A DNA stretch of 64,000 nt from Bolinopsis microptera. Its lineage: Eukaryota; Ctenophora; Tentaculata; Lobata; Bolinopsidae. The stretch spans positions 3,111,730-3,175,729 of the forward strand of contig NC_087079.1 in NCBI RefSeq assembly GCF_026151205.1. The letters run 5' to 3'. Positions 1-27,600 of the stretch are shown here, in pieces; the stretch's first letter is position 1, and each line of letters opens with the position of its first letter. The translations under genes and the position numbers were made by a program. The notes beneath the pieces are model-generated. The model had not been told where the DNA came from, made no database searches, and saw nothing but the letters and a program-made list of their open reading frames with translations.

Positions 1-3000
1 CTGAGAGCAGGTAGAGTGAAGGTTACACTAAAACAATATTCAACCTGAGAGCAGGTAGAGTGAAGGTTACACTAAAACAATATTCAACCTGAGAGCAGGT
101 AGAGTGAAGGTTACACTAAAACAATATTAAACCTGAGAGCAGGTAGAGTGAAGGTTACACTAAAACAATATTCAACCTGAGAGCAGGTAGAGTGAAGGTT
201 ACACTAAAACAACATTAAACCTGAGAGCAGGTAGAGTGAAGGTTACACTAAAACAATATTAAACCTGAGAGCAGGTAGAGTGAAGGTTACACTAAAACAA
301 TATTCAACCTGAGAGCAGGTAGAGTGAAGGTTACACTAAAACAATATTAAACCTGAGAGCAGGTAGAGTGAAGGTTACACTAAAACAATATTAAACCTGA
401 GAGCAGGTAGAGTGAAGGTTACACTAAAACAATATTAAACCTGAGAGCAGGTAGAGTGAAGGTTACACTAAAACAATATTAAACCTGAGAGCAGGTAGAG
501 TGAAGGTTACACTAAAACAATATTAAACCTGAGAGCAGGTAGAGTGAAGGTTACACTAAAACAATATTAAACCTGAGAGCAGGTAGAGTGAAGGTTACAC
601 TAAAACAATATTAAACCTGAGAGCAGGTAGAGTGAAGGTTACACTAAAACAATATTAAACCTGAGAGCAGGTAGAGTGAAGGTTACACTAAAACAATATT
701 AAACCTGAGAGCAGGTAGAGTGAAGGTTACACTAAAACAATATTAAACCTGAGAGCAGGTAGAGTGAAGGTTACACTAAACAATATTAAACCTGAGAGCA
801 GGTAGAGTGAAGGTTACACTAAAACAATATTAAACCTGAGAGCAGGTAGAGTGAAGGTTACACTAAAACAATATTAAACCTGAGAGCAGGTAGAGTGAAG
901 GTTACACTAAAACAATATTAAACCTGAGAGCAGGTAGAGTGAAGGTTACACTAAAACAATATTCAACCTGAGAGCAGGTAGAGTGAAGGTTACACTAAAA
1001 CAATATTCAACCTGAGAGCAGGTAGAGTGAAGGTTACACTAAAACAATATTAAACCTGAGAGCAGGTAGAGTGAAGGTTACACTAAAACAATATTAAACC
1101 TGAGAGCAGGTAGAGTGAAGGTTACACTAAAACAATATTCAACCTGAGAGCAGGTAGAGTGAAGGTTACACTAAAACAATATTAAACCTGAGAGCAGGTA
1201 GAGTGAAGGTTACACTAAAACAATATTCAACCTGAGAGCAGGTAGAGTGAAGGTTACACTAAAACAATATTAAACCTGAGAGCAGGTAGAGTGAAGGTTA
1301 CACTAAAACAATATTAAACCTGAGAGCAGGTAGAGTGAAGGTTACACTAAAACAATATTAAACCTGAGAGCAGGTAGAGTGAAGGTTACACTAAAACAAT
1401 ATTAAACCTGAGAGCAGGTAGAGTGAAGGTTACACTACAACAATATTAAACCTGAGAGCAGGTAGAGTGAAGGTTACACTAAAACAATATTCAACCTGAG
1501 AGCAGGTAGAGTGAAGGTTACACTACAACAATATTCAACCTGAGAGCAGGTAGAGTGAAGGTTACACTAAAACAATATTCAACCTGAGAGCAGGTAGAGT
1601 GAAGGTTACACTAAAACAATATTAAACCTGAGAGCAGGTAGAGTGAAGGTTACACTACAACAATATTAAACCTGAGAGCAGGTAGAGTGAAGGTTACACT
1701 AAAACAATATTAAACCTGAGAGCAGGTAGAGTGAAGGTTACACTAAAACAATATTAAACCTGAGAGCAGGTAGAGTGAAGGTTACACTAAAACAATATTC
1801 AACCTGAGAGCAGGTAGAGTGAAGGTTACACTAAAACAATATTCTACCTGAGAGCAGGTAGAGTGAAGGTTACACTAAAACAATATTAAACCTGAGAGCA
1901 GGTAGAGTGAAGGTTACACTACAACAATATTCAACCTGAGAGCAGGTTGAGTGAAGGTTACACTAAAACAATATTCAACCTGAGAGCAGGTAGAGTGAAG
2001 GTTACACTAAAACAATATTAAACCTGAGAGCAGGTAGAGTGAAGGTTACACTACAACAACATTAAACCTGAGAGCAGGTAGAGTGAAGGTTACACTAAAA
2101 CAATATTCTACCTGAGAGCAGGTAGAGTGAAGGTTACACTAAAACAATATTCTACCTGAGAGCAGGTAGAGTGAAGGTTACACTACAACAATATTAAACC
2201 TGAGAGCAGGTAGAGTGAAGGTTACACTAAAACAATATTCTACCTGAGAGCAGGTAGAGTGAAGGTTACACTACAACAATATTCAACCTGAGAGCAGGTA
2301 GAGTGAAGGTTACACTAAAACAATATTAAACCTGAGAGCAGGTAGAGTGAAGGTTACACTAAAACAATATTCAACCTGAGAGCAGGTAGAGTGAAGGTTA
2401 CACTACAACAATATTAAACCTGAGAGCAGGTAGAGTGAAGGTTACACTAAAACAATATTCAACCTGAGAGCAGGTAGAGTGAAGGTTACACTACAACAAT
2501 ATTAAACCTGAGAGCAGGTAGAGTGAAGGTTACACTAAAACAATATTCAACCTGAGAGCAGGTAGAGTGAAGGTTACACTAAAACAATATTAAACCTGAG
2601 AGCAGGTAGAGTGAAGGTTACACTAAAACAATATTAAACCTGAGAGCAGGTAGAGTGAAGGTTACACTAAAACAATATTAAACCTGAGAGCAGGTAGAGT
2701 GAAGGTTACACTAAAACAATATTAAACCTGAGAGCAGGTAGAGTGAAGGTTACACTAAAACAATATTAAACCTGAGAGCAGGTAGAGTGAAGGTTACACT
2801 AAAACAATATTAAACCTGAGAGCAGGTAGAGTGAAGGTTACACTAAAACAATATTAAACCTGAGAGCAGGTAGAGTGAAGGTTACACTAAAACAATATTA
2901 AACCTGAGAGCAGGTAGAGTGAAGGTTACACTAAAACAATATTAAACCTGAGAGCAGGTAGAGTGAAGGTTACACTAAAACAATATTAAACCTGAGAGCA

Positions 3001-6000
3001 GGTAGAGTGAAGGTTACACTAAAACAATATTCAACCTGAGAGCAGGTAGAGTGAAGGTTACACTAAAACAATATTAAACCTGAGAGCAGGTAGAGTGAAG
3101 GTTACACTAAAACAATATTAAACCTGAGAGCAGGTAGAGTGAAGGTTACACTAAAACAATATTAAACCTGAGAGCAGGTAGAGTGAAGGTTACACTAAAA
3201 CAATATTAAACCTGAGAGCAGGTAGAGTGAAGGTTACACTAAAACAATATTAAACCTGAGAGCAGGTAGAGTGAAGGTTACACTAAAACAATATTCAACC
3301 TGAGAGCAGGTAGAGTGAAGGTTACACTACAACAATATTCAACCTGAGAGCAGGTAGAGTGAAGGTTACACTAAAACAATATTCAACCTGAGAGCAGGTA
3401 GAGTGAAGGTTACACTAAAACAATATTCAACCTGAGAGCAGGTAGAGTGAAGGTTACACTAAAACAATATTCAACCTGAGAGCAGGTAGAGTGAAGGTTA
3501 CACTACAACAATATTAAACCTGAGAGCAGGTAGAGTGAAGGTTACACTAAAACAATATTCAACCTGAGAGCAGGTAGAGTGAAGGTTACACTAAAACAAT
3601 ATTAAACCTGAGAGCAGGTAGAGTGAAGGTTACACTAAAACAATATTCAACCTGAGAGCAGGTAGAGTGAAGGTTACACTAAAACAATATTAAACCTGAG
3701 AGCAGGTAGAGTGAAGGTTACACTAAAACAATATTCAACCTGAGAGCAGGTAGAGTGAAGGTTACACTAAAACAATATTCAACCTGAGAGCAGGTAGAGT
3801 GAAGGTTACACTAAAACAATATTCAACCTGAGAGCAGGTAGAGTGAAGGTTACACTAAAACAATATTCAACCTGAGAGCAGGTAGAGTGAAGGTTACACT
3901 AAAACAATATTCAACCTGAGAGCAGGTAGAGTGAAGGTTACACTAAAACAATATTCAACCTGAGAGCAGGTAGAGTGAAGGTTACACTAAAACAATATTA
4001 AACCTGAGAGCAGGTAGAGTGAAGGTTACACTACAACAATATTCAACCTGAGAGCAGGTAGAGTGAAGGTTACACTAAAACAATATTCAACCTGAGAGCA
4101 GGTAGAGTGAAGGTTACACTAAAACAATATTAAACCTGAGAGCAGGTAGAGTGAAGGTTACACTAAAACAATATTAAACCTGAGAGCAGGTAGAGTGAAG
4201 GTTACACTAAAACAATATTAAACCTGAGAGCAGGTAGAGTGAAGGTTACACTAAAACAATATTCAACCTGAGAGCAGGTAGAGTGAAGGTTACACTAAAA
4301 CAATATTAAACCTGAGAGCAGGTAGAGTGAAGGTTACACTAAAACAATATTAAACCTGAGAGCAGGTAGAGTGAAGGTTACACTAAAACAATATTAAACC
4401 TGAGAGCAGGTAGAGTGAAGGTTACACTAAAACAATATTCAACCTGAGAGCAGGTAGAGTGAAGGTTACACTAAAACAATATTCAACCTGAGAGCAGGTA
4501 GAGTGAAGGTTACACTAAAACAATATTCAACCTGAGAGCAGGTAGAGTGAAGGTTACACTAAAACAATATTCAACCTGAGAGCAGGTAGAGTGAAGGTTA
4601 CACTAAAACAATATTCAACCTGAGAGCAGGTAGAGTGAAGGTTACACTAAAACAATATTCAACCTGAGAGCAGGTAGAGTGAAGGTTACACTAAAACAAT
4701 ATTCAACCTGAGAGCAGGTAGAGTGAAGGTTACACTAAAACAATATTAAACCTGAGAGCAGGTAGAGTGAAGGTTACACTAAAACAATATTAAACCTGAG
4801 AGCAGGTAGAGTGAAGGTTACACTAAAACAATATTCAACCTGAGAGCAGGTAGAGTGAAGGTTACACTAAAACAATATTAAACCTGAGAGCAGGTAGAGT
4901 GAAGGTTACACTAAAACAATATTAAACCTGAGAGCAGGTAGAGTGAAGGTTACACTAAAACAATATTCAACCTGAGAGCAGGTAGAGTGAAGGTTACACT
5001 AAAACAATATTCAACCTGAGAGCAGGTAGAGTGAAGGTTACACTAAAACAATATTCAACCTGAGAGCAGGTAGAGTGAAGGTTACACTAAAACAATATTC
5101 AACCTGAGAGCAGGTAGAGTGAAGGTTACACTAAAACAATATTCAACCTGAGAGCAGGTAGAGTGAAGGTTACACTAAAACAATATTCAACCTGAGAGCA
5201 GGTAGAGTGAAGGTTACACTAAAACAATATTCAACCTGAGAGCAGGTAGAGTGAAGGTTACACTAAAACAATATTCAACCTGAGAGCAGGTAGAGTGAAG
5301 GTTACACTAAAACAATATTCAACCTGAGAGCAGGTAGAGTGAAGGTTACACTAAAACAATATTCAACCTGAGAGCAGGTAGAGTGAAGGTTACACTAAAA
5401 CAATATTCAACCTGAGAGCAGGTAGAGTGAAGGTTACACTAAAACAATATTCAACCTGAGAGCAGGTAGAGTGAAGGTTACACTAAAACAATATTAAACC
5501 TGAGAGCAGGTAGAGTGAAGGTTACACTAAAACAATATTAAACCTGAGAGCAGGTAGAGTGAAGGTTACACTAAAACAATATTAAACCTGAGAGCAGGTA
5601 GAGTGAAGGTTACACTAAAACAATATTAAACCTGAGAGCAGGTAGAGTGAAGGTTACACTAAAACAATATTAAACCTGAGAGCAGGTAGAGTGAAGGTTA
5701 CACTAAAACAATATTAAACCTGAGAGCAGGTAGAGTGAAGGTTACACTAAAACAATATTAAACCTGAGAGCAGGTAGAGTGAAGGTTACACTAAAACAAT
5801 ATTAAACCTGAGAGCAGGTAGAGTGAAGGTTACACTAAAACAATATTAAACCTGAGAGCAGGTAGAGTGAAGGTTACACTAAAACAATATTAAACCTGAG
5901 AGCAGGTAGAGTGAAGGTTACACTAAAACAATATTAAACCTGAGAGCAGGTAGAGTGAAGGTTACACTAAAACAATATTAAACCTGAGAGCAGGTAGAGT

Positions 6001-9000
6001 GAAGGTTACACTAAAACAATATTAAACCTGAGAGCAGGTAGAGTGAAGGTTACACTAAAACAATATTAAACCTGAGAGCAGGTAGAGTGAAGGTTACACT
6101 AAAACAATATTCAACCTGAGAGCAGGTAGAGTGAAGGTTACACTAAAACAATATTCAACCTGAGAGCAGGTAGAGTGAAGGTTACACTAAAACAATATTA
6201 AACCTGAGAGCAGGTAGAGTGAAGGTTACACTAAAACAATATTAAACCTGAGAGCAGGTAGAGTGAAGGTTACACTAAAACAATATTAAACCTGAGAGCA
6301 GGTAGAGTGAAGGTTACACTAAAACAATATTCAACCTGAGAGCAGGTAGAGTGAAGGTTACACTAAAACAATATTAAACCTGAGAGCAGGTAGAGTGAAG
6401 GTTACACTAAAACAATATTAAACCTGAGAGCAGGTAGAGTGAAGGTTACACTAAAACAATATTAAACCTGAGAGCAGGTAGAGTGAAGGTTACACTAAAA
6501 CAATATTAAACCTGAGAGCAGGTAGAGTGAAGGTTACACTAAAACAATATTCAACCTGAGAGCAGGTAGAGTGAAGGTTACACTAAAACAATATTAAACC
6601 TGAGAGCAGGTAGAGTGAAGGTTACACTAAAACAATATTAAACCTGAGAGCAGGTAGAGTGAAGGTTACACTAAAACAATATTCAACCTGAGAGCAGGTA
6701 GAGTGAAGGTTACACTAAAACAATATTAAACCTGAGAGCAGGTAGAGTGAAGGTTACACTAAAACAATATTAAACCTGAGAGCAGGTAGAGTGAAGGTTA
6801 CACTAAAACAATATTCAACCTGAGAGCAGGTAGAGTGAAGGTTACACTAAAACAATATTCAACCTGAGAGCAGGTAGAGTGAAGGTTACACTAAAACAAT
6901 ATTAAACCTGAGAGCAGGTAGAGTGAAGGTTACACTAAAACAATATTAAACCTGAGAGCAGGTAGAGTGAAGGTTACACTAAAACAATATTCAACCTGAG
7001 AGCAGGTAGAGTGAAGGTTACACTAAAACAATATTCAACCTGAGAGCAGGTAGAGTGAAGGTTACACTAAAACAATATTAAACCTGAGAGCAGGTAGAGT
7101 GAAGGTTACACTAAAACAATATTAAACCTGAGAGCAGGTAGAGTGAAGGTTACACTAAAACAATATTAAACCTGAGAGCAGGTAGAGTGAAGGTTACACT
7201 AAAACAATATTCAACCTGAGAGCAGGTAGAGTGAAGGTTACACTAAAACAATATTCAACCTGAGAGCAGGTAGAGTGAAGGTTACACTAAAACAATATTA
7301 AACCTGAGAGCAGGTAGAGTGAAGGTTACACTAAAACAATATTAAACCTGAGAGCAGGTAGAGTGAAGGTTACACTAAAACAATATTCAACCTGAGAGCA
7401 GGTAGAGTGAAGGTTACACTAAAACAATATTAAACCTGAGAGCAGGTAGAGTGAAGGTTACACTAAAACAATATTCAACCTGAGAGCAGGTAGAGTGAAG
7501 GTTACACTAAAACAATATTAAACCTGAGAGCAGGTAGAGTGAAGGTTACACTAAAACAATATTCAACCTGAGAGCAGGTAGAGTGAAGGTTACACTAAAA
7601 CAATATTAAACCTGAGAGCAGGTAGAGTGAAGGTTACACTAAAACAATATTAAACCTGAGAGCAGGTAGAGTGAAGGTTACACTAAAACAATATTAAACC
7701 TGAGAGCAGGTAGAGTGAAGGTTACACTAAAACAATATTCAACCTGAGAGCAGGTAGAGTGAAGGTTACACTAAAACAATATTAAACCTGAGAGCAGGTA
7801 GAGTGAAGGTTACACTAAAACAATATTAAACCTGAGAGCAGGTAGAGTGAAGGTTACACTAAAACAATATTAAACCTGAGAGCAGGTAGAGTGAAGGTTA
7901 CACTAAAACAATATTCAACCTGAGAGCAGGTAGAGTGAAGGTTACACTAAAACAATATTCAACCTGAGAGCAGGTAGAGTGAAGGTTACACTAAAACAAT
8001 ATTAAACCTGAGAGCAGGTAGAGTGAAGGTTACACTAAAACAATATTAAACCTGAGAGCAGGTAGAGTGAAGGTTACACTAAAACAATATTCAACCTGAG
8101 AGCAGGTAGAGTGAAGGTTACACTAAAACAATATTAAACCTGAGAGCAGGTAGAGTGAAGGTTACACTAAAACAATATTAAACCTGAGAGCAGGTAGAGT
8201 GAAGGTTACACTAAAACAATATTAAACCTGAGAGCAGGTAGAGTGAAGGTTACACTAAAACAATATTCAACCTGAGAGCAGGTAGAGTGAAGGTTACACT
8301 AAAACAATATTAAACCTGAGAGCAGGTAGAGTGAAGGTTACACTAAAACAATATTAAACCTGAGAGCAGGTAGAGTGAAGGTTACACTAAAACAATATTA
8401 AACCTGAGAGCAGGTAGAGTGAAGGTTACACTAAAACAATATTAAACCTGAGAGCAGGTAGAGTGAAGGTTACACTAAAACAATATTAAACCTGAGAGCA
8501 GGTAGAGTGAAGGTTACACTAAAACAATATTAAACCTGAGAGCAGGTAGAGTGAAGGTTACACTAAAACAATATTAAACCTGAGAGCAGGTAGAGTGAAG
8601 GTTACACTAAAACAATATTCAACCTGAGAGCAGGTAGAGTGAAGGTTACACTAAAACAATATTCAACCTGAGAGCAGGTAGAGTGAAGGTTACACTAAAA
8701 CAATATTCAACCTGAGAGCAGGTAGAGTGAAGGTTACACTAAAACAATATTAAACCTGAGAGCAGGTAGAGTGAAGGTTACACTAAAACAATATTAAACC
8801 TGAGAGCAGGTAGAGTGAAGGTTACACTACAACAATATTAAACCTGAGAGCAGGTAGAGTGAAGGTTACACTAAAACAATATTAAACCTGAGAGCAGGTA
8901 GAGTGAAGGTTACACTAAAACAATATTAAACCTGAGAGCAGGTAGAGTGAAGGTTACACTACAACAATATTAAACCTGAGAGCAGGTAGAGTGAAGGTTA

Positions 9001-10411
9001 CACTAAAACAATATTAAACCTGAGAGCAGGTAGAGTGAAGGTTACACTAAAACAACATTAAACCTGAGAGCAGGTAGAGTGAAGGTTACACTAAAACAAT
9101 ATTAAACCTGAGAGCAGGTAGAGTGAAGGTTACACTAAAACAATATTAAACCTGAGAGCAGGTAGAGTGAAGGTTACACTAAAACAATATTAAACCTGAG
9201 AGCAGGTAGAGTGAAGGTTACACTACAACAATATTAAACCTGAGAGCAGGTAGAGTGAAGGTTACACTAAAACAATATTAAACCTGAGAGCAGGTAGAGT
9301 GAAGGTTACACTAAAACAATATTAAACCTGAGAGCAGGTAGAGTGAAGGTTACACTAAAACAATATTAAACCTGAGAGCAGGTAGAGTGAAGGTTACACT
9401 AAAACAATATTAAACCTGAGAGCAGGTAGAGTGAAGGTTACACTACAACAATATTAAACCTGAGAGCAGGTAGAGTGAAGGTTACACTAAAACAATATTA
9501 AACCTGAGAGCAGGTAGAGTGAAGGTTACACTAAAACAATATTAAACCTGAGAGCAGGTAGAGTGAAGGTTACACTAAAACAATATTAAACCTGAGAGCA
9601 GGTAGAGTGAAGGTTACACTACAACAATATTCAACCTGAGAGCAGGTAGAGTGAAGGTTACACTACAACAATATTAAACCTGAGAGCAGGTAGAGTGAAG
9701 GTTACACTACAACAATATTAAACCTGAGAGCAGGTAGAGTGAAGGTTACACTAAAACAATATTAAACCTGAGAGCAGGTAGAGTGAAGGTTACACTACAA
9801 CAATATTAAACCTGAGAGCAGGTAGAGTGAAGGTTACACTACAACAATATTAAACCTGAGAGCAGGTAGAGTGAAGGTTACACTAAAACAATATTAAACC
9901 TGAGAGCAGGTAGAGTGAAGGTTACACTACAACAATATTAAACCTGAGAGCAGGTAGAGTGAAGGTTACATTAAAACAATATTAAACCTGAGAGCAGGTA
10001 GAGTGAAGGTTACACTAAAACAATATTCAACCTGAGAGCAGGTAGAGTGAAGGTTACACTACAACAATATTAAACCTGAGAGCAGGTAGAGTGAAGGTTA
10101 CACTAAAACAATATTAAACCTGAGAACAGGTAGAGTGAAGGTTACACTACAACAATATTAAACCTGAGAGCAGGTAGAGTGAAGGTTACACTAAAACAAT
10201 ATTAAACCTGAGAGCAGGTAGAGTGAAGGTTACACTACAACAATATTAAACCTGAGAGCAGGTAGAGTGAAGGTTACACTAAAACAATATTCAACCTGAG
10301 AGCAGGTAGAGTGAAGGTTACACTAAAACAATATTCAACCTGAGAGCAGGTAGAGTGAAGGTTACACTAAAACAATATTAAACCTGAGAACAGGTAGAGT
10401 GAAGGTTACAC
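1..10411. repeat. 44-bp minisatellite, about 236 copies, in MEGF8-like intron 26
   Basis: A near-perfect head-to-tail array with period 44 runs from the window edge to 10411, with only a few variable sites (TTAAAC/TTCAAC/TTCTAC and ACTAAAAC/ACTACAAC) and one 43-bp unit near 778. Read on the minus strand, each unit is a 16-nt tail ending GTTTTAG or GTTGTAG, 27 nt encoding C-N-L-H-S-T-C-S-Q, and a donor CAG|GTTTAA (or GTTGAA, GTAGAA). The 27 nt equal the 3' end of exon 26. The array overlaps the last 28 bases of that exon and continues beyond the window. Confidence 0.97.
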
Positions 10412-10925
10412 AAGCAGTCCTGGTCACAGTTAGGCCCAGTGTAACCTAGATCACACTCACACAGGTTGTACTCGCTACACTTGCCGTGTTTGCAGGTGGA
10501 ACTCGTGTCACACCTGCGGTGGTAACAGTTTTATCGAGCCATGTATTTACAATTGAAATAGGGTCATTATATCGGGCATTGTTTTTAGAAGTGTCACTGA
10601 TAATAACTTGGGTATTTTACCCCTTTTACAAATTAATATTTGCTTGATTTTCGCTGAACTTGACAAACAGTGTTTAGTTGTACCACAAGTCACTAAAAAT
10701 CTCAAACTAACTAACTTCAACCGACAATCTCCTCCCAACTCACTTGGACTCACAGACCCCATCGTGGTCCTGATAACCCAGTTTACACTGACAAGTAAAC
10801 CCGTCCTCTGTATCTATACACTCGGCGTTGTCATGGCAGTGGTGGAGTCCCAGGGCACACTCGTTAACTGCTGGACACTCCTGGTAGTACCAGCTCAGCG
10901 AGCAGTAACCCTCCTCAAAGTTACC
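10384..10925 (-). CDS. MEGF8: MEGF8-like exons 25-26: calcium-binding EGF and laminin-type EGF start
   Basis: Exons are 10744-10925 and 10384-10513. Exon 25 holds a calcium-binding EGF: N-E-C-A, H-H-C-H-D-N-A-E-C-I-D-T, then D-G-F-T-C-Q-C-K-L-G-Y. It ends in phase 2 at a GTGAGT donor; a second GTGAGT 10 nt upstream in the exon would break the frame. Exon 26 gives C-K-H-G-K-C-S-E-Y-N-L-C-E-C-D-L-G-Y and ends in C-L-C-N-L-H-S-T-C-S-Q, the first part of a laminin-type EGF. Its last 27 nt and donor form the template of the adjoining 44-bp array. The acceptor of exon 25 sits at the edge of the 41-bp array. Confidence 0.8.
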
Positions 10926-13900
10926 CTGACAGAGCATGTTAGTGTGCTTCTAGATTCAAAGTTACCCTGACAGAGCATGTTAGTGTGCTTCTAGATTCAA
11001 AGTTACCCTGACAGAGCATGTTAGTGTGCTTCTAGATTCAAAGTTACCCTGACAGAGCATGTTAGTGTGCTTCTAGATTCAAAGTTACCCTGACAGAGCA
11101 TGTTAGTGTGCTTCTAGATTCAAAGTTACCCTGACAGAGCATGTTAGTGTGCTTCTAGATTCAAAGTTACCCTGACAGAGCATGTTAGTGTGCTTCTAGA
11201 TTCAAAGTTACCCTGACAGAGCATGTTAGTGTGCTTCTAGATTCAAAGTTACCCTGACAGAGCATGTTAGTGTGCTTCTAGATTCAAAGTTACCCTGACA
11301 GAGCATGTTAGTGTGCTTCTAGATTCAAAGTTACCCTGACAGAGCATGTTAGTGTGCTTCTAGATTCAAAGTTACCCCGACAGAGCATGTTAGTGTGCTT
11401 CTAGATTCAAAGTTACCCTGACAGAGCATGTTAGTGTGCTTCTAGATTCAAAGTTACCCTGACAGAGCATGTTAGTGTGCTTCTAGATTCAAAGTTACCC
11501 TGACAGAGCATGTTAGTGTGCTTCTAGATTCAAAGTTACCCTGACAGAGCATGTTAGTGTGCTTCTAGATTCAAAGTTACCCTGACAAATCATGTTAGTG
11601 TGCTTCTAGATTCAAAGTTACCCTGACAGAGCATGTTAGTGTGCTTCTAGATTCAAAGTTACCCTGACAGAGCATGTTAGTGTGCTTCTAGATTCAAAGT
11701 TACCCTGACAGAGCATGTTAGTGTGCTTCTAGATTCAAAGTTACCCTGACAGAGCATGTTAGTGTGCTTCTAGATTCAAAGTTACCCTGACAGAGCAGGT
11801 TAGTGTGCTTCTAGATTCAAAGTTACCCTGACAGAGCATGTTAGTGTGCTTCTAGATTCAAAGTTACCCTGACAGAGCATGTTAGTGTGCTTCTAGATTC
11901 AAAGTTACCCAGACAGAGCATGTTAGTGTGCTTCTAGATTCAAAGTTACCCTGACAGAGCATGTTAGTGTGCTTCTAGATTCAAAGTTACCCTGACAGAG
12001 CAGGTTAGTGTGCTTCTAGATTCAAAGTTACCCTGACAGAGCATGTTAGTGTGCTTCTAGATTCAAAGTTACCCTGACAGAGCATGTTAGTGTGCTTCTA
12101 GATTCAAAGTTACCCTGACAGAGCATGTTAGTGTGATTCTAGATTCAAAGTTACCCTGACACAGCATGTTAGTGTGCTTCTAGATTCAAAGTTACCCTGA
12201 CACAGCATGTTAGTGTGCTTCTAGATTCAAAGTTACCCTGACAGAGCATGTTAGTGTGCTTCTAGATTCAAAGTTACCCTGACAGAGCATGTTAGTGTGC
12301 TTCTAGATTCAAAGTTACCCTGACAGAGCATGTTAGTGTGCTTCTAGATTCAAAGTTACCCCGACAGAGCATGTTAGTGTGCTTCTAGATTCAAAGTTAC
12401 CCTGACAGAGCATGTTAGTGTGCTTCTAGATTCAAAGTTACCCTGACAGAGCATGTTAGTGTGCTTCTAGATTCAAAGTTACCCTGACAGAGCATGTTAG
12501 TGTGCTTCTAGATTCAAAGTTACCCTGACACAGCATGTTAGACGTTAGTGTGCTTCTAGATTCAAAGTTACCCTGACAGAGCATGCTAGTGTGCTTCTAG
12601 ATTCAAAGTTACCCTGACAGAGCATGTTAGTGTGCTTCTAGATTCCCTGACAGAGCATGTTAGTGTGCTTCTAGATTCAAAGTTACCCTGACAGAGCATG
12701 TTAGTGTGCTTCTAGATTCAAAGTTACCCTGACAGAGCATGTTAGTGTGCTTCTAGATTCAAAGTTACCCTGACAGAGCAGGTTAGTGTGCTTCTAGATT
12801 GTATCTTAGAGGTGGTAAATTTGGGTAGACAACACAGAATTGAAAGACGGATAAGCTTGTAAACATTCCTCCTGAACAAATACCTGGGTGAGGTTGAGAC
12901 TGCAGAGTGACTGCAGACCTACCTTAATACAAGTACCGGAGTGACGTGAGGTTGAGACTCCAGACCTACCTTAATACAAATACCTGGGTGAGGTTGAGAC
13001 TCCAGACCTACCTTAATACAAGTACCGGAGTGAGGTTGAGACTCCAGTCCGCACCACCCACACCCGCGCACACTCTGACACTCTCTGCACGTGCGGTACA
13101 TCTCGCACTCGTCACAGTGGGACGATCCACCCCTGAAACAAGTTCCGTGAGATTTAATATTAATTGATAAAATCCCTATTTTATTATACTAGATTCGTCT
13201 TTATTTCGTCTTTATTTCTGAAGCAGACTGATATGGTAGATAAGCTTCCAAAAATCCAAAACTAATAATAATTAATCAATACCCAAATATTAACATATTA
13301 TCTACATTAATTCACAAGATATTGTGTTAAAGCACACAAAAGGACTCAGACTCACGGGGTAACAAATCCGTTGTACCACACGGAGCACTCCCCAAACGGG
13401 TAGAGAGCCACCTGTACGTTTATGGAGAAACACCGTCCCAGCGCCTTGCACCAAACACAGTCGTCCAGCCTGGGGTCACGTGATTATTTAGAGTCACGTG
13501 ATTAGTAAGGGTCACGTGGTTTGTTAGGGTCGCGTGATTAGTTCAAATAATTTAGATATTTGGTGGGTAGAGATTTTATGACACAACTCTAATATACTAT
13601 TATATTGCCAGGCAAACCTTCCGGTTTTTAAAAAGATAGAGATTAATGTTGGTATTGAAACATAATTAAACTGCTATAATCACTGATTAGTACCGAAATA
13701 ACTTTATAACTAGGAATCACTAAGTTACTAAATGTGTCAGGAAAATGAACTGACTCAGTGCAGGAGTAGCAGGAAGACTGTCGAGAGCAGGTATCCGGGC
13801 AGCGGTATCTCGATCTGATCGCTTCCTCGTATCTCCCACGTCTGTGGCATCTGAAGTTAAGCCACTCACAGTTACCGTCCTGAGGGAGGGGTAGTGTCTT

Positions 13901-15567
13901 ATCTGGCAAAACTGTGGTTAATTAAAACTGTGGTTAACTAAAACTGTGGTTAACTAAAACTGTGGTGAATTAAAACTGCGAATAACTAAAACTGCAGTTA
14001 AATAAAACTGTGGTAAACTAAAACTATGGTTAACTAAAACTGTGGTTAACTAATTACTAAAACTGTGATTAACTAAAACTGTGGTTTAAAAACTGTGGTA
14101 AACTAAAACTGTGGTTAACTAAAACTGCAGTTAAATAAAACTGTGGCAAACTAAAACTTTGGTTAATTAAAACTGTGGTTAACTAAAACTGTGGTTAACT
14201 AAAACTGTGGTTAAATAAAACTGTGGTTAACTAAAACTGTGGTTAACTAAAACTGCAGTTAAATGAAACTGTGGTAAACTAAAACTGTGGTTAGTTAAAA
14301 CTGTGGTAAACTAAAACTCACTCCAGCACAAGCAGAACAAGTGATACGTTCGTCACACTTGGTACAGGAATCAAAGTCAGTTATCAGGTACCCTGCTCTG
14401 AACTTCTGATTGGTGGAGAAGGTGTGCACTGATCTTAGCTGGCATCTGGGAGGAAGGAGGGTGTTACATGCCACATACCAAAGCTTTCGACTAGTGGGTT
14501 TATAGTATATTATGTACGGATACTTCTAGTTAGAGTAACCAGGGCCAGGGTTTGAGAATTATACCGTATACGTCGAAGTGTCACTAACCGTGCTAAAGAA
14601 GAGTGATGACGTCACTAACCATGATATAGAAGAAAGATGACGTCACTAACCGTGATAAAGAAGAGTGATGACGTCACTAACCGTGATATAGAAGAGTGAT
14701 GACGTCACTAACCGTGATATAGAAGAAAGATGACGTCACTAACCGTGATAAAGAAATAAGAAGAGTGATGACGTCACTAACCGTGATATAGAAGAGTGAT
14801 GACGTCACTAACCGTGATATAGAAGAAAGATGACGTCACTAACCGTGATAAAGAAGAGTGATGACGTCACTAACCGTGATAAAGAAGAGTGATGACGTCA
14901 CTAACCGTGATATAGAAGAGTGATGACGTCACTAACCGTGATAAAGAAGAGTGATGACGTCACTAACCGTGATATAGAAGAGTGATGACGTCACTAACCG
15001 TGATATAGAAGAGTGATGACGTCACTAACCGTAATATAGAAGAGTGATGACGTCACTAACCGTGATATAGAAGAGTTCCAGCCACACAGTTGATCAGTAA
15101 GACACCCCAGACAGGTTCCAAAGTGAGTACAGGAACCGTTCCTGTAGGGCACTAACACGTCCTGATAATGTATACCGTTACTGTGAGATACCTTCAGTTT
15201 TACTGTCATTTAGAGATGGCCACTAGAATTGAACAATAAGAGAGTAAAATCACATCCAGTAAACGAGGTAACGGGGGAAAACAAAGGGTTATCTTGTTAT
15301 TCTGTCCATCACGCAATGACGTTATAAACCGACGGATAACGTCACGTGACCTCCTTATGACGTCACGTGACCTCCTAATGACGTCACATGACAGTGTACC
15401 TCGTTGAGTATCTCCTCGGAGTGGTAGTCAGATCCCCCACCGTCCCACATGATCGTCATGTTACTCCTCTGTTGCTGATCATTAATGTACTGACTTAACA
15501 CTGCTTTTATGTATACCTGGTGTGAAACAATATTACCATTGTAAGAAGGAGGGGGCGGGGCGGCGAA

Positions 15568-15605
<38 letters not shown>

Positions 15606-18600
15606 GACATAACATTCCTTATGATATTAATCATCTTATTTTCATCATTACATCCCCCCATCATTAATCTGCAGTTTGATTTCAATAGACCATTTTACAT
15701 ACATAACTTTATCATAATACGACCAAACTATTCACTAAAACGACTTGACAAATATAAAGAAATAATAATAAAAGAAATTTTAATCTTAAATATGTAGAAA
15801 GAATAAAAAAGCGACTCGACAATCTTCTCGACAATAATGTCACTAAAAATTCACTAAAAAAGTTCTCACAATTTTGTATCTAGGCAGCGAGTAACGGTTC
15901 TCCTTTTGTATCTTCCGGCTGGCATTCCTGAACACTAACTCTGCGTCACGTGACGTCCTGCCCACGTGCAGATCAACTAAGCCGTCCGTGTACTGGACTC
16001 GTAGATTGTACTGCGGAATTTGGGGGAGGGATAGTTATTAGGCCAATAATTAAATACTTGAACAAACTGTTTGTTTTAATTGTCACATAGGTTTATTGAA
16101 ATATCGTGACAAAAAGTGGCAAAATGTACTACAAGAACTCAAGAACTGTGCGAAGAAAATATCAATGCAGTGATCATAGTTCAAATAATTGACAATCATA
16201 TTCTAGACTAAAAGTGTAAACTGAAGGTTAAAACACTAAAAACCCATTCTACGCAACTAAACTCCAGAGAGATCTCCTCTCTGTGGGGTGGTCACACAAT
16301 GTGATGGCTTTGTTAAGTTGTTAAAGCTTAACAAATCTCAACATAGGTGACATAGGTGGATAAACTGTAAGATATTAGATAAACCTTGTTGGAATATTCC
16401 CTGTGCGTGCTGTTGATGTAGCCCCGGAGGTGTCCGTAGTATCTCTTATCTTCCCCCGTATCTCTTGTATGTGTCTGGTATTGTGAAATAATGGTCACGT
16501 GATCTAATTACTTACTCTCAAATTGGGTCTTATTTAAAAGCCTGAATATCAACCTTAAATCAGCACGTCCTCGCTTATTTTCTTTGTCGCACTCACGCAG
16601 TAGCAATCTCAAACTATTATCAACTTTAAATATTATTGAACTTAGGGAAAAGTAACCAATGTTAAAGATCATTACATGTTTGGAGTAGAGCAGGTCGACA
16701 CGTGCTGACTTGACAATAGACACGTGATCAGGGAGGTCCCAGTTAACCGGGTCCACTACTTTCACCCAGTGTAGTCCTGGAGGCATATCGTCTGTCTGGG
16801 AGGATCTTAATTAGTCAGTTAATTACTAATTAGTCAATAAGGTGATTAGATAATTGGTCAGTAATTAAACCGGGGTTCAGGGGACAGTGTTTACCTGGCA
16901 CTGTATAGGTGAAGTTAGCAGGGTTCCCTCAGGACCCCACCATGGTTCTGGAGATTGTACTCCACAATAGTCGCCACTGTTCCGGGATCTACAGTTTCCG
17001 TCTTGTACACACCTGTTATTATTAGAAAGTGAATATAAATAAAATCTAAAATAAATAATATTAAGGTTTTAATAATTGACGGTCGGAGGGAAAGAAAACG
17101 CAAAGATATCAAATTTAATCCAAATAATGACATAGATAAGGTGACCTTTGGAAAATCTAATTAGTCGCTGCCCCCGCTAATTGTTGCATCATTGACTCTT
17201 ATAGACGCCAACTCCTCACCAGTATAAACAAATAAACAAAATATAAGTATCCTAATAAATCCTGTACGCCGTGATGATATGATAGATTTTAGGAAGTATT
17301 GTGTGATATTAATACCAGTTAGTTATATTTCTACGTAATGGAAGTGGAAAACCGAGTTCCGGTCGGCGGGTCCGATAGGGCGGGTCAGACAGCACCTGGG
17401 GGAGTGACAAATGCACCACCTCAGAGGGAACAGCTGTGAAACACTGGAGCTAGAATTAAGGGCTGTCAAACACAATGATGCTAAATTAACATAATATAAT
17501 GATGATAGATTAACACAGCGTGATAGAGAGGAACAATAACTAGTCAACGGAGTGCGAAGGTAGCAGGTGAGAGGTCTAAAACAACGGACAGGACATTATT
17601 TATAGCTGGGAGCTGGAGCTGGGCAAAGAGAGTTTCTAGTTTGTTCTATCGAAGGACGGTTGGTGGCGGACGACTAAGGAACCTGTTACTCTGGTTGAGT
17701 TCTGGTTGGCCTGGAGAGTTGTCGATAGTTGACATAATGTTATTGGTCACGGCACATTTAAGTTAGGAGTTTCAGCGGGACATAATGCAGGTGTAACTGT
17801 AATTGTAGACAAGCATTGACGGAGTTTCAGCGGGACATAATGCAGGTGTAACTGTAACTGTAGACAAGCATTGACGGCACATTTAAGTTAGGAGTTTCAG
17901 CGGGACATAATGCAGGTGTAACTGTAATTGTAGACAAGCATTGACGGAGTTTCAGCGGGACATAATGCAGGTGTAACTGTAACTGTAGACAAGCATTGAC
18001 GGCACATTTAAGTTAGGAGTTTCAGCGGGACATAATGCAGGTGTAACTGTAATTGTAGACAAGCATTGACGGAGTTTCAGCGGGACATAATGCAGGTGTA
18101 ACTGTAACTGTAGACAAGCATTGACGGCACATTTAAGTTAGGAGTTTCAGCGGGACATGATGCAGGTGTAACTGTAATTGTAGACAAGCATTGACGGAGT
18201 TTCAGCGGGACATGATGCAGGTGTAACTGTAATTGTAGACAAGCATTGACGGCACATTTAAGTTAGGAGTTTCAGCGGGACATGATGCAGGTGTAACTGT
18301 AATTGTAGACAAGCATTGACGGAGTTTCAGCGGGACATGATGCAGGTGTAACTGTAATTGTAGACAAGCATTGACATTTAAATTAGGAGTTTCAGCGGGA
18401 CATGATGCAGGTGTAATTGTAGACAAGCATTGACGGCCGACTTTATTATAGTGTGTCTGAATAAAGTAGGTTTGTACTGATTGTATTTCATATAATAATG
18501 TTAGTTATATCGTCTTAGAACACGTTTATTAATTGTTAGGCCCTGAACGTCAGTGTCTAATAATCGCCACTGTTGGTATCAATTAAGCAGGAATACCCAC

Positions 18601-21600
18601 TGCTAACAAGCCACGTACCACTCACAACCAGCTAGTGCACACTCGGTGCACCTTGTTAGTCTGTAGCACACACTGCACTGGTTCATCTGCTGACGGCATC
18701 TCTTGACTGGTCGGCACTTCTTGCCGCACCGTACGCAGTGCTGTAACGCGTTACACTCGTCATATGCGGCACTGCTTACTTCACCTCCCTGTAGGTAGTA
18801 ATGCGTCAACAATTATAGAATTATACGGTAGCTGTGTTGTGAACTTTACTATAAAATTAAAATGTCTTAAATGAAACTGTTAATTACATCGCATTTAATC
18901 TCATCAGTTCGTCGGACGTAGGACAGATAAATCAAAAATCCTACGTCATAATAGTGCCCAATTAATAGCCGAATAAAGGCAGAATCTAATGGAATTGTAA
19001 CATTCACGTCAGAACGAACCACTGTTTTAAAGTTTTAACACACCTTTTTATCCTTGTTCGGAATGGAAGAGCAATCCTCCCTGGGCGGATAATATAACAG
19101 CACATCGTTCATGGGCTGTCCGTTAAACCCCCCTACAACAACCATACTGTCTCTGTATCTAGCTGCCGCGTGCGCGTATCTCAAGCTGGCTGTCACGTGG
19201 CTCTCGTCTTTGGGGAGCGGGGACACCCAGTCCATGCAACCCAGGTCGAAAACTATAGTGTCCGGGTTAAAACACTGCTCGACATTCTGGTTTTCTTTGT
19301 TGCCACCTGACAAAGGGAAGTTTAGGTTAGAGTTAACGAAATAAATAACGATACAATTAATGAAACAACAATGTCCTCTCGGTGCAATCCATTTGTCAAG
19401 GTTGGTTAAATATTTATTTGGAAATTGGATTATGGATGGAATTAGTACGATGATTTTGGTCCATCGTTTAGAGAAATAGTAAACAGAGTTAGAATTAACC
19501 AGATTCTTAGTTGTCACATTGACTTACCGAATACAACCATAAATCTGCCCAGTTTGACTGCTGTGTGAAAAACAATACCAGGAATTTGGGTAGTGATTTT
19601 AAGCTTCGACCATACCTGCAAGGGGTAATACAGTTATTAATATATCAAGCTATAATCAACAAATGTATTAGAACTTGAAGAAGTTATTTCCAATTTGCTA
19701 TGCCAATTGGTTAAAACACTGTTCCACAGTAGGCTTTACTTTGGGTAAATTGGCAACTGTTATTTTTTTATTTTTTTATTATATCAGGGCATTATCGACA
19801 AATTACACCCGAAGATATTGTTTAAACTACCTAGGAAGGGAGCACCCAATTTTTTCCTCAAAATTAATTTAATCTTTAAAAAAATGAGAACTGCTAATCG
19901 GTAATACGTAAAGCTACTAATCATTGTTCCTGTCACAACCCGTGAATCCATGATAGAGGCTGTAACAATGCAGTCTGAAGCTCCACGATGGTCCGTGCAC
20001 CCTGCTTATCTCCCCATAAACCCTGTAAACCGTCCCAACTAACAAGCTATTCACTAGAACATCCCCTGTCTGTGAAGCTCTCTGCATCCAGAAAGCAGCT
20101 ACTCTTCCTTATATGGGCATCACGTGGCTACGCTTGCCCTACTGCTCCTTGTATCGGGGGTTGTCTGGACACAAGAACCCTTACCAGGCTGATAATAACA
20201 TGCGGGCAGATGTAGACAGGGCTGTTGTCTGGAGATATAGGTAGTATGTCTTCAGTCACACTTGTCAGAACCGCCCCTCAGGAGCTTATTTAATATCAGC
20301 ATCAGACCAAAGGTCAGATCAGTGCTCAGTGGTTTGTTTTTCGAGAGCTCCATTGAGGTATGGAGCCGTTAGTTTTATTTCTCAGTTCTTCTATATGGAC
20401 TGAGTGCGTGGAACTTTTTTGTCTAAAATTTGGAGGTTATTTTCTTTTCGGACACATTTAAATTATATTAGATCAAGGCGAACTAAATAGTTGTTAGGGC
20501 CACGCTTTTTTAACTCGTACGTTTTTATCTGTAGATCTGTGTAGTATTTGTTTAATAAGTTCATGAAAACTTTTGTTATCTATTTCGTTACACGATGTAA
20601 CATTTAAACGGAAGTAGTTTTTTCTCAAGCCCATTGAGAGTCATATTTACTGTCTAAGCGCAGTAACAATAGGTTTTTGAATAATAATATAAGAATTTGT
20701 TTATTCCACGCCAGCAATCATTCGTCGATAATGCCCATTTTACAAGCTTATATAAGTCACCTTGTTCTTTATACTGAAGAGTAAAACATCCGAACTCTTG
20801 TCGTAGCGTACATGAGGTATTGGAACAAAACCTGTGTGAGAAACAAGGTTAGTACTTTAGTAGTAGTGTGAGAAACAGTGTTAGTACTTTAGTAGTATCC
20901 AGCATATCCACCTGTTTGAGAGGGTTAGTACTTTAGTAGTATTCAGCATATCCATATTCCATATCCGGCCCCAATTGTAATGATATCATGGTCCCACCGC
21001 TGTGTTCCGGGTTATCCGACATAAAGTTTACAAATGTTAGCATTGATCATATGCTCTAACAAAATATAAGCTCACCTCCGAACACGACAATACTTCCTGA
21101 GTCCTCATCATACACAGCAGAGTGACCGTACCGTCTTATCTCAGAACACTTGTAGATAGTGGGGGTCACCAGACCCCATACAGGACTCCGGGAGGATAGG
21201 TCCATGGTGTGAAGTGAGCAGGAATAGTGGTCCGTGTCTCCGCCAGTAAGACCTGTCAAGTGATTAGATTATTATATATTAGCTGATTAGTAATAAATAG
21301 GAGATCGTAAATTTATCGGTAAATTTAAAAAACATACTGAATATTTTGGATTACCGCCCCAAAAAATTTAACAAAGAATGTTAATTGTAACCCGCCCTAT
21401 GATGAATGTAACCCGCCCTATGATGAATGTACTACGGCAGACTTTTCTAAAAATACATTTCGTTATCCGTATATTTGATTACAATTAAACGACTAAAAAC
21501 CTTATGAGACCCGAGAACACTTTTCAGGTGGTCAAAATGAATATTATTCAAGTAATAAAAACAAATTTAAAAATGTTATATGGGTCAATCAATAATATTA

Positions 21601-24600
21601 TCATGTGATTATGACTGATTTCAACACATGATAATATTTCAAAAACGTAATTATTAATAAACAATTAATAAGATCGTAGAAAATACTCAAACCAAATTAT
21701 AAATTATTTAATAGTAATCTTAAACCAGGATCATGTTTTTGCAACTCCTATCAGCCCTGCTAGCCCTCCATTGCACCATCCCCACTATATCGGCTTCAGA
21801 GGGATCCTCAGCAAAGGCACTGCAGTTCGGTACCACCTTTGGTGACTACGTAAAGTTTTTCCCTGATATGAGCCAGGTCAAAGACTCCCTAACGGTGTGT
21901 TCATGGGTAAAGAAACAGCTGACTGGCCCCTACAGATCCTGGTTTAGCTACAAAACGTCCACACACGAGATCCTAATATCAGATGCTGGTTACTACAACT
22001 ACATTCACAACAGCGGCAATTACCAGTCAAGTGCTATTACTGTAACAGTACCTCTTGATACGTGGAGTCATCAATGTCAAAGCTGGTCAACAAGCACTGG
22101 GACAATGAAGACATACTATAATGGTACTCTCATAGGGTCTAAAAGTATTTCCTCAGCTCCATTAAAAGAGGGGGTGTCATTACTCTGGGACACAATGCTG
22201 CAGCGTAGAACAAGTAGAAGTATTCGGTGGGCAGCTGATGAAACTAGATATCTTCGGAAAAGTGCTCAGTTCAGAAGAAATTGCAGATATATACAACGCT
22301 GGGAGATGTTCCGATGTAGAAAAGAAGCACCAGGAAGTCAGGTTCATCACCTGGGAGAGCATCCTGAGTCAGGACAAAACTGGTAATGTCACAGAAGTGG
22401 ACTCTGGGTGTCCTGCTGAAGAAGAAGAGGAGGAAGAAGAGGAAGAAAAAGAAGTTTGAGTGTCACAGTATTTGGGACATACTCTATGATCAGACCTACT
22501 TCAACCAAACACTCGCCGCCGAGAAACTGACCGAGCTAAATGCTAACTGGAACATGTTGGGTAAGTAGATAATTACCATGAGTAGGTTAAGTTCATGTCT
22601 TATTATTTTTAGAGATTTTCCTTCGTTCTGGTTAGACTACGACTGGATACTGGTGCAGGGGAGGTTAGCCGTATTTGTTGTGACACGTGATAAAGAGTCT
22701 TGTTTGATTGGCCAATTATACTGGAAGCTGACTGGTTAATTACTGGCACGTGTCATAGTAAATAGAGTTCAAATCCGGTCTTCCTGACCGTGTCTAGATA
22801 TATTGAACGCGAACAATTTTTCTTGTACCCTAGAAATAAACTAATAATAAGTTTACTTGCAGATTATTTCGTCGGCACACCGATCACGGAGAATATCATA
22901 GCTTATTTTAAGGCTTACCATCCTATGCCGGCAGAGAAAGATGACAGCAGCTAGAGGAAAGAAATCAAGGGGAAGATTAACTCATCGGTACGTTGATTTT
23001 AATAACAGCACAATAACTTATTATTAACTAGGTTTGCTGATTAGACATTTTAAGATTATTAATTACTATCAATATTATTGGTTATCCCTCCGTCTCCGGC
23101 CGGTAAAATGTATGATATTACTAATCAACTTCTCTTCAGGTCCTACTACAAAGTACACTGTTCTCCTTACAGCTGCTTGGTTACTAATTTGGAGACGAGG
23201 ATCTAATTTTTCTGATACGTATCATGGGATTAGTCTGATGTCAGAGCTTTTGTTGCCTTAATGTTGCCTTAATGTTGCCTTAATGTTGTCTTAATGTTGT
23301 CTTATCGTTTGTTGTCTTATTGGTGTTTGTTGCGTTAACGTTGGCTTAATGTTGTCTTATTGTTGTCTTAATATTGTCTTATTGTTGTCTTAATGTTGTC
23401 TTAATGTCCCATCGGTGATTGTTCAAGTGGCCGAGCTTTTTGAACCCATTTCCATTATAACAGTAACCCGTTTTAGAACATTCTTAATAATTATCATTAG
23501 AATAGTTATACTGACCCTATATTTTTGAACAATAATTTTACTATCAATTATTGGCATTTTGATGTCAGGAATTTGTTTTACCAACCGATTGTCATTGCAG
23601 TAACTAATTTTAGAACATTTTGAACATCAATTTATTGACCCCTATAATACTATTCAGTTGAGTGCCATTTTAGAACATTTTTGATACGTAATTATTTTAA
23701 TAATGACTCTTATTTGATTTAGAGCTAATTTTAGCTAATACTAGTATCTACTATCAACGTATCATAAATATAAAATAAAGATACGTTTTTAAAAATTTGA
23801 ATCTTAGTCTTACATTTAAAGTATGGTTAGTGAATTTATTTACGATCTATTTACGATAATAATTATTTACGATAATTTATTACGATAATAATATGTTATA
23901 GGGAACTTAGAGATTTTTCAACATGAATGCTTTCATCAATTGTGATTTGAAACGATTTAAATTTTATTCGAAATCGTATCTTTTATTGGTTCAAATATAT
24001 AACTGGGTTAAATGGGGGTCAGAAATGAGATTGGTGGCAGATAATTCAACTTTATCTCGGAAAAAAATATTTGTGCGGCCAACACTAGCTTCCAGCATTA
24101 TATTTGGAAATAATGTAATATTATGTGTTCTACAAGGGAAGGTGTCCCAAAAAGTGATCAGTTTTAATAACTCGGAAACAGTTATGAAATAATTATGACA
24201 GGGTTACGACATGCAGTCGAATCCCTATGCCACAACCAAAAACCAAATCGTATTTACATATTTAACAACCATGCCATAACTGTGTCACAACATGGTTATG
24301 AAATGGTTAAATAAAGTTTACCCAGCCAAGAGGGAGACATCTTCAACATTTGAATTTAAAAGTTTAAATGTTATTATTGAATGGAAAAAATACTACAATT
24401 CTGTTGGATTTGTCCAAATAAATGCTAAGATTACTTTTACTTCTTTTCTCTTGAACAGACAGGAATTAAGTGACACGATATTGTGAGAACAAAACGTTAA
24501 TATAACCCTAACCATAATAACGTAATTGACAATAATCTTTGATGAATCCCCCTCCCCCTTTTTCAACAACGCCCAAAAGGCAAAAACTTCAAGACCCCCC

Positions 24601-27600
24601 TGCCCCACAGCAATTTTGAACAAACCTCCGAAAAGGTAAACGTTGCCAGCTGGCACCACAGTGGTTGTGTGCCCGGTAACCGGTACTGGAAGAGACGGGT
24701 ACTGGTACCAGCACGAGTCTGACGTGTTGTACAGCCAACAGTCGCCTCCGATAGTCGTTGTGCTCTGATGTATAATTGTAGACAATTTTTTCGATTATTT
24801 TTCTTAATTATATCTAGCCATAAATAATAATGGAGACCGTGTACACTGCACAGCATAATTTTGTTTAAAAATCTGACTGTAATAAAAATGTGCGCTATTT
24901 CAGTATTGCTTAGACAATTCGAATAATTCACCTTGAAGAATCCGCCACAATACAGGATACTATCACCAAACACCGCAGAACTGTGCATATAGCGTCCTGA
25001 GGTTAAAATAGTGTTATTTCGAATAAAATCAAGTTTCACGTCTTTTATTAAAACAACAAAGAATTTATCTTTTTTAAAAATAATAAGTGTACCAACTAGC
25101 GGGGTACACTTAGTTTTCTTGTTGAGAAGTTTTCTTGTTGCTTTTAAAAAATAGTCACAAAATAATCTTGTTTTACTGTAATATCATAGTGCAACAGTAA
25201 TGTAAAAGTAGTGCAACAGTAATGTAAAAGTAGTGCAACAGTAATGTAAAAGTAGTGCAACAGTAATGTAAAAGTAGTGCAACAGTAATGTAAAAGTAGT
25301 GCAACAGTAATGTAAAAGTAGTGCAACAGTAATGTAAAAGTAGTGCAACAGTAATGTAAAAGTAGCGCAACAGTAATGTAAAAGTAGTGCAACAGTAATG
25401 TAAAAGTAGCGCAACAGTAATGTAAAAGTAGCGCAACAGTAATGTAAAAGTAGTGCAACAGTAATGTAAAAGTAGCGCAACAGTAATGTAAAAGTAGTGC
25501 AACAGTAATGTAAAAGTAGTGCAACAGTAATGTAAAAGTAGTGCAACAGTAATGTAAAAGTAGCGCAACAGTAATGTAAAAGTAGTGCAACAGTAATGTA
25601 AAAGAAGTGCAACAGTAATGTAAAAGTAGCGCAACAGTAATGTAAAAGTAGTGCAACAGTAATGTAAAAGTAGCGCAACAGTAATGTAAAAGTAGCGCAA
25701 CAGTAATGTAAAAGTAGCGCAACAGTAATGTAAAAGTAGTGCAACAGTAATGTAAAAGTAGCGCAACAGTAATGTAAAAGTAGTGCAACAGTAATGTAAA
25801 AGTAGTGCAACAGTAATGTAAAAGTAGTGCAACAGTAATGTAAAAGTAGTGCAACAGTAATGTAAAAGTAGCGCAACAGTAATGTAAAAGTAGTGCAACA
25901 GTAATGTAAAAGTAGTGCAACAGTAATGTAAAAGTAGCGCAACAGTAATGTAAAAGTAGTGCAACAGTAATGTAAAAGTAGCGCAACAGTAATGTAAAAG
26001 TAGTGCAACAGTAATGTAAAAGTAGTGCAACAGTAATGTAAAAGTAGTGCAACAGTAATGTAAAAGTAGCGCAACAGTAATGTAAAAGTAGTGCAACAGT
26101 AATGTAAAAGTAGCGCAACAGTAATGTAAAAGTAGTGCAACAGTAATGTAAAAGTAGTGCAACAGTAATGTAAAAGTAGCGCAACAGTAATGTAAAAGTA
26201 GTGCAACAGTAATGTAAAAGTAGCGCAACAGTAATGTAAAAGTAGTGCAACAGTAATGTAAAAGTAGTGCAACAGTAATGTAAAAGTAGTGCAACAGTAA
26301 TGTAAAAGTAGCGCAACAGTAATGTAAAAGTAGCGCAACAGTAATGTAAAAGTAGTGCAACAGTAATGTAAAAGTAGTGCAACAGTAATGTAAAAGTAGT
26401 GCAACAGTAATGTAAAAGTAGTGCAACAGTAATGTAAAAGTAGTGCAACAGTAATGTAAAAGTAGTGCAACAGTAATGTAAAAGTAGTGCAACAGTAATG
26501 TAAAAGTAGCGCAACAGTAATGTAAAAGTAGTGCAACAGTAATGTAAAAGTAGCGCAACAGTAATGTAAAAGTAGTGCAACAGTAATGTAAAAGTAGTGC
26601 AACAGTAATGTAAAAGTAGTGCAACAGTAATGTAAAAGTAGCGCAACAGTAATGTAAAAGTAGTGCAACAGTAATGTAAAAGTAGTGCAACAGTAATGTA
26701 AAAGTAGCGCAACAGTAATGTAAAAGTAGTGCAACAGTAATGTAAAAGTAGCGCAACAGTAATGTAAAAGTAGTGCAACAGTAATGTAAAAGTAGTGCAA
26801 CAGTAATGTAAAAGTAGCGCAACAGTAATGTAAAAGTAGCGCAACAGTAATGTAAAAGTAGTGCAACAGTAATGTAAAAGTAGTGCAACAGTAATGTAAA
26901 AGTAGTGCAACAGTAATGTAAAAGTAGCGCAACAGTAATGTAAAAGTAGTGCAACAGTAATGTAAAAGTAGCGCAACAGTAATGTAAAAGTAGTGCAACA
27001 GTAATGTAAAAGTAGTGCAACAGTAATGTAAAGTAGTGCAACAGTAATGTAAAAGTAGCGCAACAGTAATGTAAAAGTAGTGCAACAGTAATGTAAAAGT
27101 AGCGCAACAGTAATGTAAAAGTAGTGCAACAGTAATGTAAAAGTAGTGCAACAGTAATGTAAAAGTAGTGCAACAGTAATGTAAAAGTAGTGCAACAGTA
27201 ATGTAAAAGTAGTGCAACAGTAATGTAAAAGTAGTGCAACAGTAATGTAAAAGTAGCGCAACAGTAATGTAAAAGTAGTGCAACAGTAATGTAAAAGTAG
27301 CGCAACAGTAATGTAAAAGTAGTGCAACAGTAATGTAAAAGTAGTGCAACAGTAATGTAAAAGTAGCGCAACAGTAATGTAAAAGTAGTGCAACAGTAAT
27401 GTAAAAGTAGCGCAACAGTAATGTAAAAGTAGTGCAACAGTAATGTAAAAGTAGTGCAACAGTAATGTAAAAGTAGTGCAACAGTAATGTAAAAGTAGCG
27501 CAACAGTAATGTAAAAGTAGCGCAACAGTAATGTAAAAGTAGTGCAACAGTAATGTAAAAGTAGTGCAACAGTAATGTAAAAGTAGCGCAACAGTAATGT

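Follow-up and report, generated by a model that had tools for sequence, protein, structure and literature searches.

The window, by which we mean the whole 64-kb stretch analyzed here (C8:3111730-3175729, from a genome of 264,652,675 bases in 232 contigs), includes part of a MEGF8-like gene on the minus strand, which comprises 41 model exons and extends leftward from window position 31836 to a point some 10.5 kb outside the window. A search for COX1, as an indicator of the taxon, had no match. The structure of the MEGF8-like gene was derived with a simple exon-chain model trained on this genome's exons; because four of its exons (10, 11, 13, and 38) are uncertain and one internal stop, at the join of exons 36 and 37, interrupts the spliced product, it has to be treated as a model rather than an annotation. 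Pfam searches with the translated pieces recovered CUB, Kelch, attractin beta-propeller, EGF, and laminin/attractin EGF domains, and on the basis of these domains, their order, and the general makeup of MEGF8, we call the gene MEGF8-like. Exons 1 to 26 (12937 to 31836, minus strand; the doubtful exons 10, 11, and 13 are among them) cover CUB, EGF, and Kelch domains, exon 27 of the model (10744 to 10925, minus strand) has EGF_CA and EGF_3 matches, and exon 28 (10384 to 10513, minus strand; numbered 26 in the first-pass annotation) ends at the donor CAG|GTTTAA after base 10384. From this exon-proximal donor the model continues into exon 29 in phase 0, within one laminin/attractin EGF domain. An EGF_LMN_ATRN match (residues 134 to 170 of translated piece 2) crosses the join after residue 144, which supports both the position of the donor and the phase.

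Several other elements are found within and around this gene. A 22-bp array of 190 copies lies in intron 7 (25187 to 29390), and each of the three minus-strand frames stays open there over more than 1,000 codons, which follows mechanically from a unit that contains no stop. A Pentraxin/laminin-G-like open frame (21724 to 22386), located between exons 9 and 12 of the model, is encoded on the plus strand, opposite to the MEGF8-like gene. Upstream of the gene is a 1,077-aa minus-strand open frame with a PHD finger (33304 to 36537), which shows reverse-transcriptase-like motifs; a Pfam reverse transcriptase match was not obtained for it at a threshold of 0.001, and the frame is probably a non-LTR retrotransposon. 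Two short minus-strand frames (31982 to 32613), which we take to resemble pieces of Tc1/mariner transposases, likewise had no Pfam match at 0.001.

The first-pass annotation had described a repeat of about 236 exon-like units at positions 1 to 10411, copied from the end of an exon and the start of its intron and lying in sense orientation with respect to the gene. Tandem repeat analysis (TRF on the 64-kb window), a genome search, and unit alignment bear out this anatomy: the region is a tandem array on the minus strand with a period of 44 bp and 236.6 copies (98% matches), and each unit consists of 27 nt of exon end followed by 17 nt of intron start. The unit count, in turn, is right for the in-window part and too low for the whole, which continues leftward through the neighboring stretches to C8:3108811 and amounts to about 303 units (13.3 kb). 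According to the gene model, the array takes up nearly all of the 13,419-nt intron 28, with 117 nt of nonarray sequence between its far end and the real acceptor. On the gene strand, the unit reads TGTAACCTTCACTCTACCTGCTCTCAG (27 nt) and then GTTTAATATTGTTTTAG (17 nt). The CAG|GT boundary is intact in all 302 aligned units, and an AG is in register before the 27 nt in 300 of them, the exceptions being one unit in which it is shifted by a 1-nt deletion and one with an AA ending. The 27 nt encode the nonapeptide CNLHSTCSQ in 301 of the 302 units, as had been claimed, and CNLHSTFSQ in the remaining one. In that same frame, these 27 nt also form the 3' end of exon 28, where they differ from the most frequent unit by a single synonymous change.

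Exact 29-mers of the unit number 296 in the 264 kb around the locus, all in a single block and on a single strand, and a backward control pattern has no match across the whole genome; the unit matches at the locus are thus not due to chance. Genome-wide there are 423 such 29-mers, and since the positions of the 127 outside the C8 block are given only in part, a third unit-bearing site besides this block and contig C91 may exist. When the unit pattern has a broken end, it matches 17 times genome-wide (16 on C91 and 1 on C8). Within the array, adjacent units are of the same type 144 times compared to 114.9 in shuffles (standard deviation, 7.1; 0 of 2,000 shuffles reach 144), as is predicted by local duplication and turnover. 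Leaving out the unit with the deletion, 3 of 27 exonic columns are variable versus 6 of 17 intronic ones (Fisher P = 0.068), and the changes in two of the three variable exonic columns are synonymous. This lower exonic variability is a weak hint of constraint, for which a neutral array has no need, and it counts, though too faintly to carry weight, against reading the array as a tolerated repeat.

TRF and the gene model revealed four further arrays, each built from a different unit, that lie across splice donors or acceptors of the MEGF8-like gene. A 41-bp array of 46 copies (10915 to 12800, minus strand) lies across the acceptor of exon 27, which falls inside the final unit; a 42-bp array of 3.2 copies (12909 to 13047, minus strand; unit VGLESQPHPGICIK), which is open in frame and several of whose units offer a candidate donor, crosses the donor of exon 26; a 31-bp array of 15.8 copies (14580 to 15076, minus strand) covers the donor of exon 22 (ACG|GTTAGT); and a 46-bp array left of the window extends across the acceptor of exon 34. 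We compared such arrangements with a null that places a seed one period long anywhere touching the ancestral intron and that is generous to chance, as the seed may fall freely on the exon edges. The set comprised 107 modeled introns from the MEGF8-like gene and eight myosin loci (the latter holding 55 of the 73 Myosin_head matches) and arrays with a score of at least 50 and a period of at least 7; nine doubtful exons were dropped (MEGF8 10, 11, 13, and 38; L037 4; L034 12 and 14; L035 4; and L031 1).

Preferential seeding at splice boundaries as a rule of this genome was not supported, with 5 of 59 arrays spanning a splice site against 5.22 expected (P = 0.63). All five belong to the MEGF8-like gene (5 of 22 arrays; 3.27 expected; P = 0.19), and none to the myosins (0 of 37; 1.95 expected). 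With the score raised to 80, 5 of 30 arrays span overall (P = 0.31) and 5 of 14 in MEGF8 (P = 0.11), and at 100 the counts are 5 of 22 (P = 0.23) and 5 of 11 versus 2.6 expected (P = 0.069), so that the MEGF8 excess, which points away from the chance reading, is not significant. Retaining the doubtful exons (116 introns) gives 6 of 60 arrays with 5.84 expected (P = 0.55), and four further arrays of the 59 stop at most 3 nt from a splice site without spanning it. In the rest of the 264 kb, ab initio models gave 23 introns with flanking exons above a score threshold, and of the 17 arrays considered there, 1 spans a splice site (0.61 expected; P = 0.47). The 264-kb region contains 167 arrays with a period of at least 7, which occupy 43,426 of 259,000 non-N bases (16.8%, the 44-bp array included), a proportion that is not a genome average because the region was chosen for the 44-bp array. 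With spanning at the chance level, boundary arrays can arise from the combination of short introns and many minisatellites. Under the null, 42.5% of 44-bp seeds would span a splice site when the intron is 131 bp long; the origin from a splice boundary is at the level expected for such a seed in an ancestral intron of about 131 bp.

These considerations bear on how the array is to be interpreted. It is, in our estimation, very probably a "mirage"-type minisatellite within an intron, in which the boundary was duplicated, expanded, and homogenized, the outermost donor was retained, and the inner copies are probably ignored. A 44-bp segment across the exon 28 donor would have undergone tandem duplication, and the resulting array would have been expanded and homogenized to about 303 units through unequal exchange or slippage, lengthening intron 28 from about 131 bp to 13.4 kb. 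As the exon end and donor would have been kept in the outermost copy, no change to the mRNA would be required; copies farther in would probably be passed over or, if used as donors, yield transcripts that stop immediately. Anatomy, copy number, frame, and the predicted stop upon use of a later donor are established for the array, and from these we infer its mode of growth and normal splicing at the exon-proximal donor. The array looks like a tolerated repeat, most probably a commonplace by-product, and not like a novel device for splicing.

The alternatives that invoke splicing were weighed with donor and acceptor scores based on weights learned from this genome, in comparison with 112 modeled donors and 113 modeled acceptors. 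In one of them, single 27-nt units would be spliced in as optional in-frame micro-exons, so that in some tissues the EGF domain would gain CNLHSTCSQ. The AG-27-GT arrangement of nearly all units, phase 0 on both sides, the nearly invariant nonapeptide, and the slightly less variable exonic columns are in its favor, whereas the scores are not: the AG preceding the 27 nt scores 0.47 as TTTTAG (12th percentile of modeled acceptors) and -0.86 as TTGTAG (5th percentile), and the donor CAG|GTTTAA, common to the real site and the copies, scores 0.69, which exceeds the scores of 87% of the region's GT dinucleotides and lies at the 18th percentile of modeled donors. Scored as an acceptor, the CAG at the close of the 27 nt reaches 2.41 (46th percentile), and each unit therefore carries one ordinary acceptor-like AG, which is not the one that a 27-nt exon needs but which counts against the tolerated-repeat reading. 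Moreover, the 27-nt segments of adjacent units are separated by 17 nt, compared to 83 nt for the shortest credible intron among 116 in the models (L030 has two shorter ones, of 33 and 70 nt, that are doubtful), making it most unlikely that successive units act as separate micro-exons; a single unit may do so. Inclusion would also place two additional cysteines inside an EGF domain, and the in-frame length, a multiple of three, is a 1-in-3 coincidence. Altogether, we regard micro-exon use as very improbable. A second proposal casts the array as a sink for U1 or a splicing rheostat, in which donors compete, transcripts from the wrong donor stop and are degraded, and MEGF8 output falls with array length. 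The copies indeed equal the real donor in strength (0.57 for the variant GTTGAA to 1.30 for GTAGAA, versus 0.69), and the use of donor 1, 2, 3, or 4 in place of donor 0 is predicted to produce the frame CSQ-V-stop directly after the exon; as the stop sits in the intronic part of the first unit, this applies to any later donor that keeps that unit. However, every copy has a weak donor, and a hairpin that might hide it (ACCUG/CAGGU) is present but pairs ordinarily (z of -0.07, -0.62, and -1.34), with donor pairing in the seven units tested at the 41st to 86th percentile among the 112 modeled donors. In addition, lancelet mirages with splice signals are reported to leave the mRNA undisturbed (PMC3087553 and PMC3902484). 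We accordingly give the rheostat very little credence.

In a more elaborate version, the array would be a length-tunable splicing poison: its hundreds of donors, as strong as the genuine one, would each bring about a stop at once, so that the MEGF8 dose would drop with increasing array length, and on rare occasions an in-frame insert of 27 nt would give the receptor an additional cysteine-containing nonapeptide. This strikes us as a long shot. Among the options raised by the first-pass annotation, roles as decoys, as a U1 sink, or as micro-exons are not supported, in view of the weak donors, the poor AG, the 17-nt spacing, the predicted stop one codon on when a later donor is used, and the chance-level seeding; the third option, that the array is simply tolerated, fits best. 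An error of assembly, with a true length far below or far above 13.3 kb, is suggested by the second contig, C91 (28,401 bp), the parts inspected of which (within 1 to 13962 and 23963 to 28401) carry the array in error-rich form, together with long A stretches; its alignments, of which at most 40 per piece were considered, all fall within the array. Against this, the chromosome copy is clean, its variant units are ordered, and the flanks are unrepeated on both sides, and a gross error seems to us very unlikely. The existence of the array is certain and its exact length uncertain. C91 is not usable as evidence of a longer allele; owing to its errors and A runs, it is treated as a failed sequence of the same array, and no allele or length polymorphism is read from it. 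Judging by this contig, the array seems hard to sequence.

The closest parallels to such a tolerated mirage come from lancelets, in which minisatellites duplicating exon-intron boundaries have been reported as harmless to splicing, with examples in Adh3, TnC, the globins BflGb6 and BflGb9, and PGBD5 (PMC3087553 and PMC3902484); the latter states that the Adh and TnC mirages yield no aberrant mRNAs and adds PGBD5 as a further mirage. In both settings, the tandem unit crosses an exon-intron boundary, which is placed here by the gene model and the domain match. Lancelet mirages are found at donors and acceptors, have units of 10 to 160 bp, and many carry AG/GT signals, and the arrays of the MEGF8-like gene are alike in these respects; the 44-bp array also displays the concerted behavior typical of them, with 98% matches and like neighbors. 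The differences are in copy number, about 303 (13.3 kb) as opposed to 6 and 3 units in two lancelet BflGb6 haplotypes, and in the presence of five boundary-spanning arrays in one gene model, which is unlike lancelet mirages. The host is also probably not a lancelet, since lancelet genomes are larger than its 264.65 Mb. Going by anatomy, we file the array as a putative, very large member of this kind. It illustrates how large a boundary-spanning minisatellite can become within a conserved gene, with about 300 duplicate donors, and if splicing is normal, it offers a natural experiment on the way the spliceosome selects the first among many identical donors. It further suggests that mirages are not necessarily confined to lancelets and that short introns and active minisatellites can produce them by chance.

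Another comparable case is the minisatellite of human IFI6 (6-16), described in 1995 (first author Turri), which reportedly has a 12-nt unit, the first units serving as alternative donors. That array reportedly resembles the 44-bp array in having a donor in every unit and starting at the real exon end, and differs in that its first units are said to be used as donors, whereas a later donor here is predicted to lead to an immediate stop. The title of the 1995 paper, as it appears in a reference entry of PMC2572611, speaks of a minisatellite providing multiple splice donors. A further study (PMC4039745) ties a Caenorhabditis elegans minisatellite to multiple alternative splicing. In the Rogers model, as outlined in PMC3087553, introns are gained when an AGGT site is duplicated in tandem, and the duplicated CAG|GT segment of our array is similar. 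This route, which calls for both intron ends to lie in copies of the duplicated segment, does not fit the array, as the acceptor end lies beyond the 117-nt nonarray stretch and is not a copy of the unit. The titles and abstracts of the literature searched, with most subscription journals outside the coverage, contained no report of this array.

Other repeats and duplications were noted in the same survey. An 8-bp TACCCCTC array of 119 copies occupies positions 44867 to 45817 of the window. At C8:3286261-3286796 (L023), a 28-bp array of 19 copies has a unit, CTTACAGGTCAACTCAGACCAGGTCAGT, with acceptor- and donor-like motifs. In the myosin gene L030, the same exon is present in two adjacent versions (2613 to 2806 and 2839 to 3088, 0-based; profile positions 105 to 167 and 102 to 167), a pairing that resembles mutually exclusive exons.
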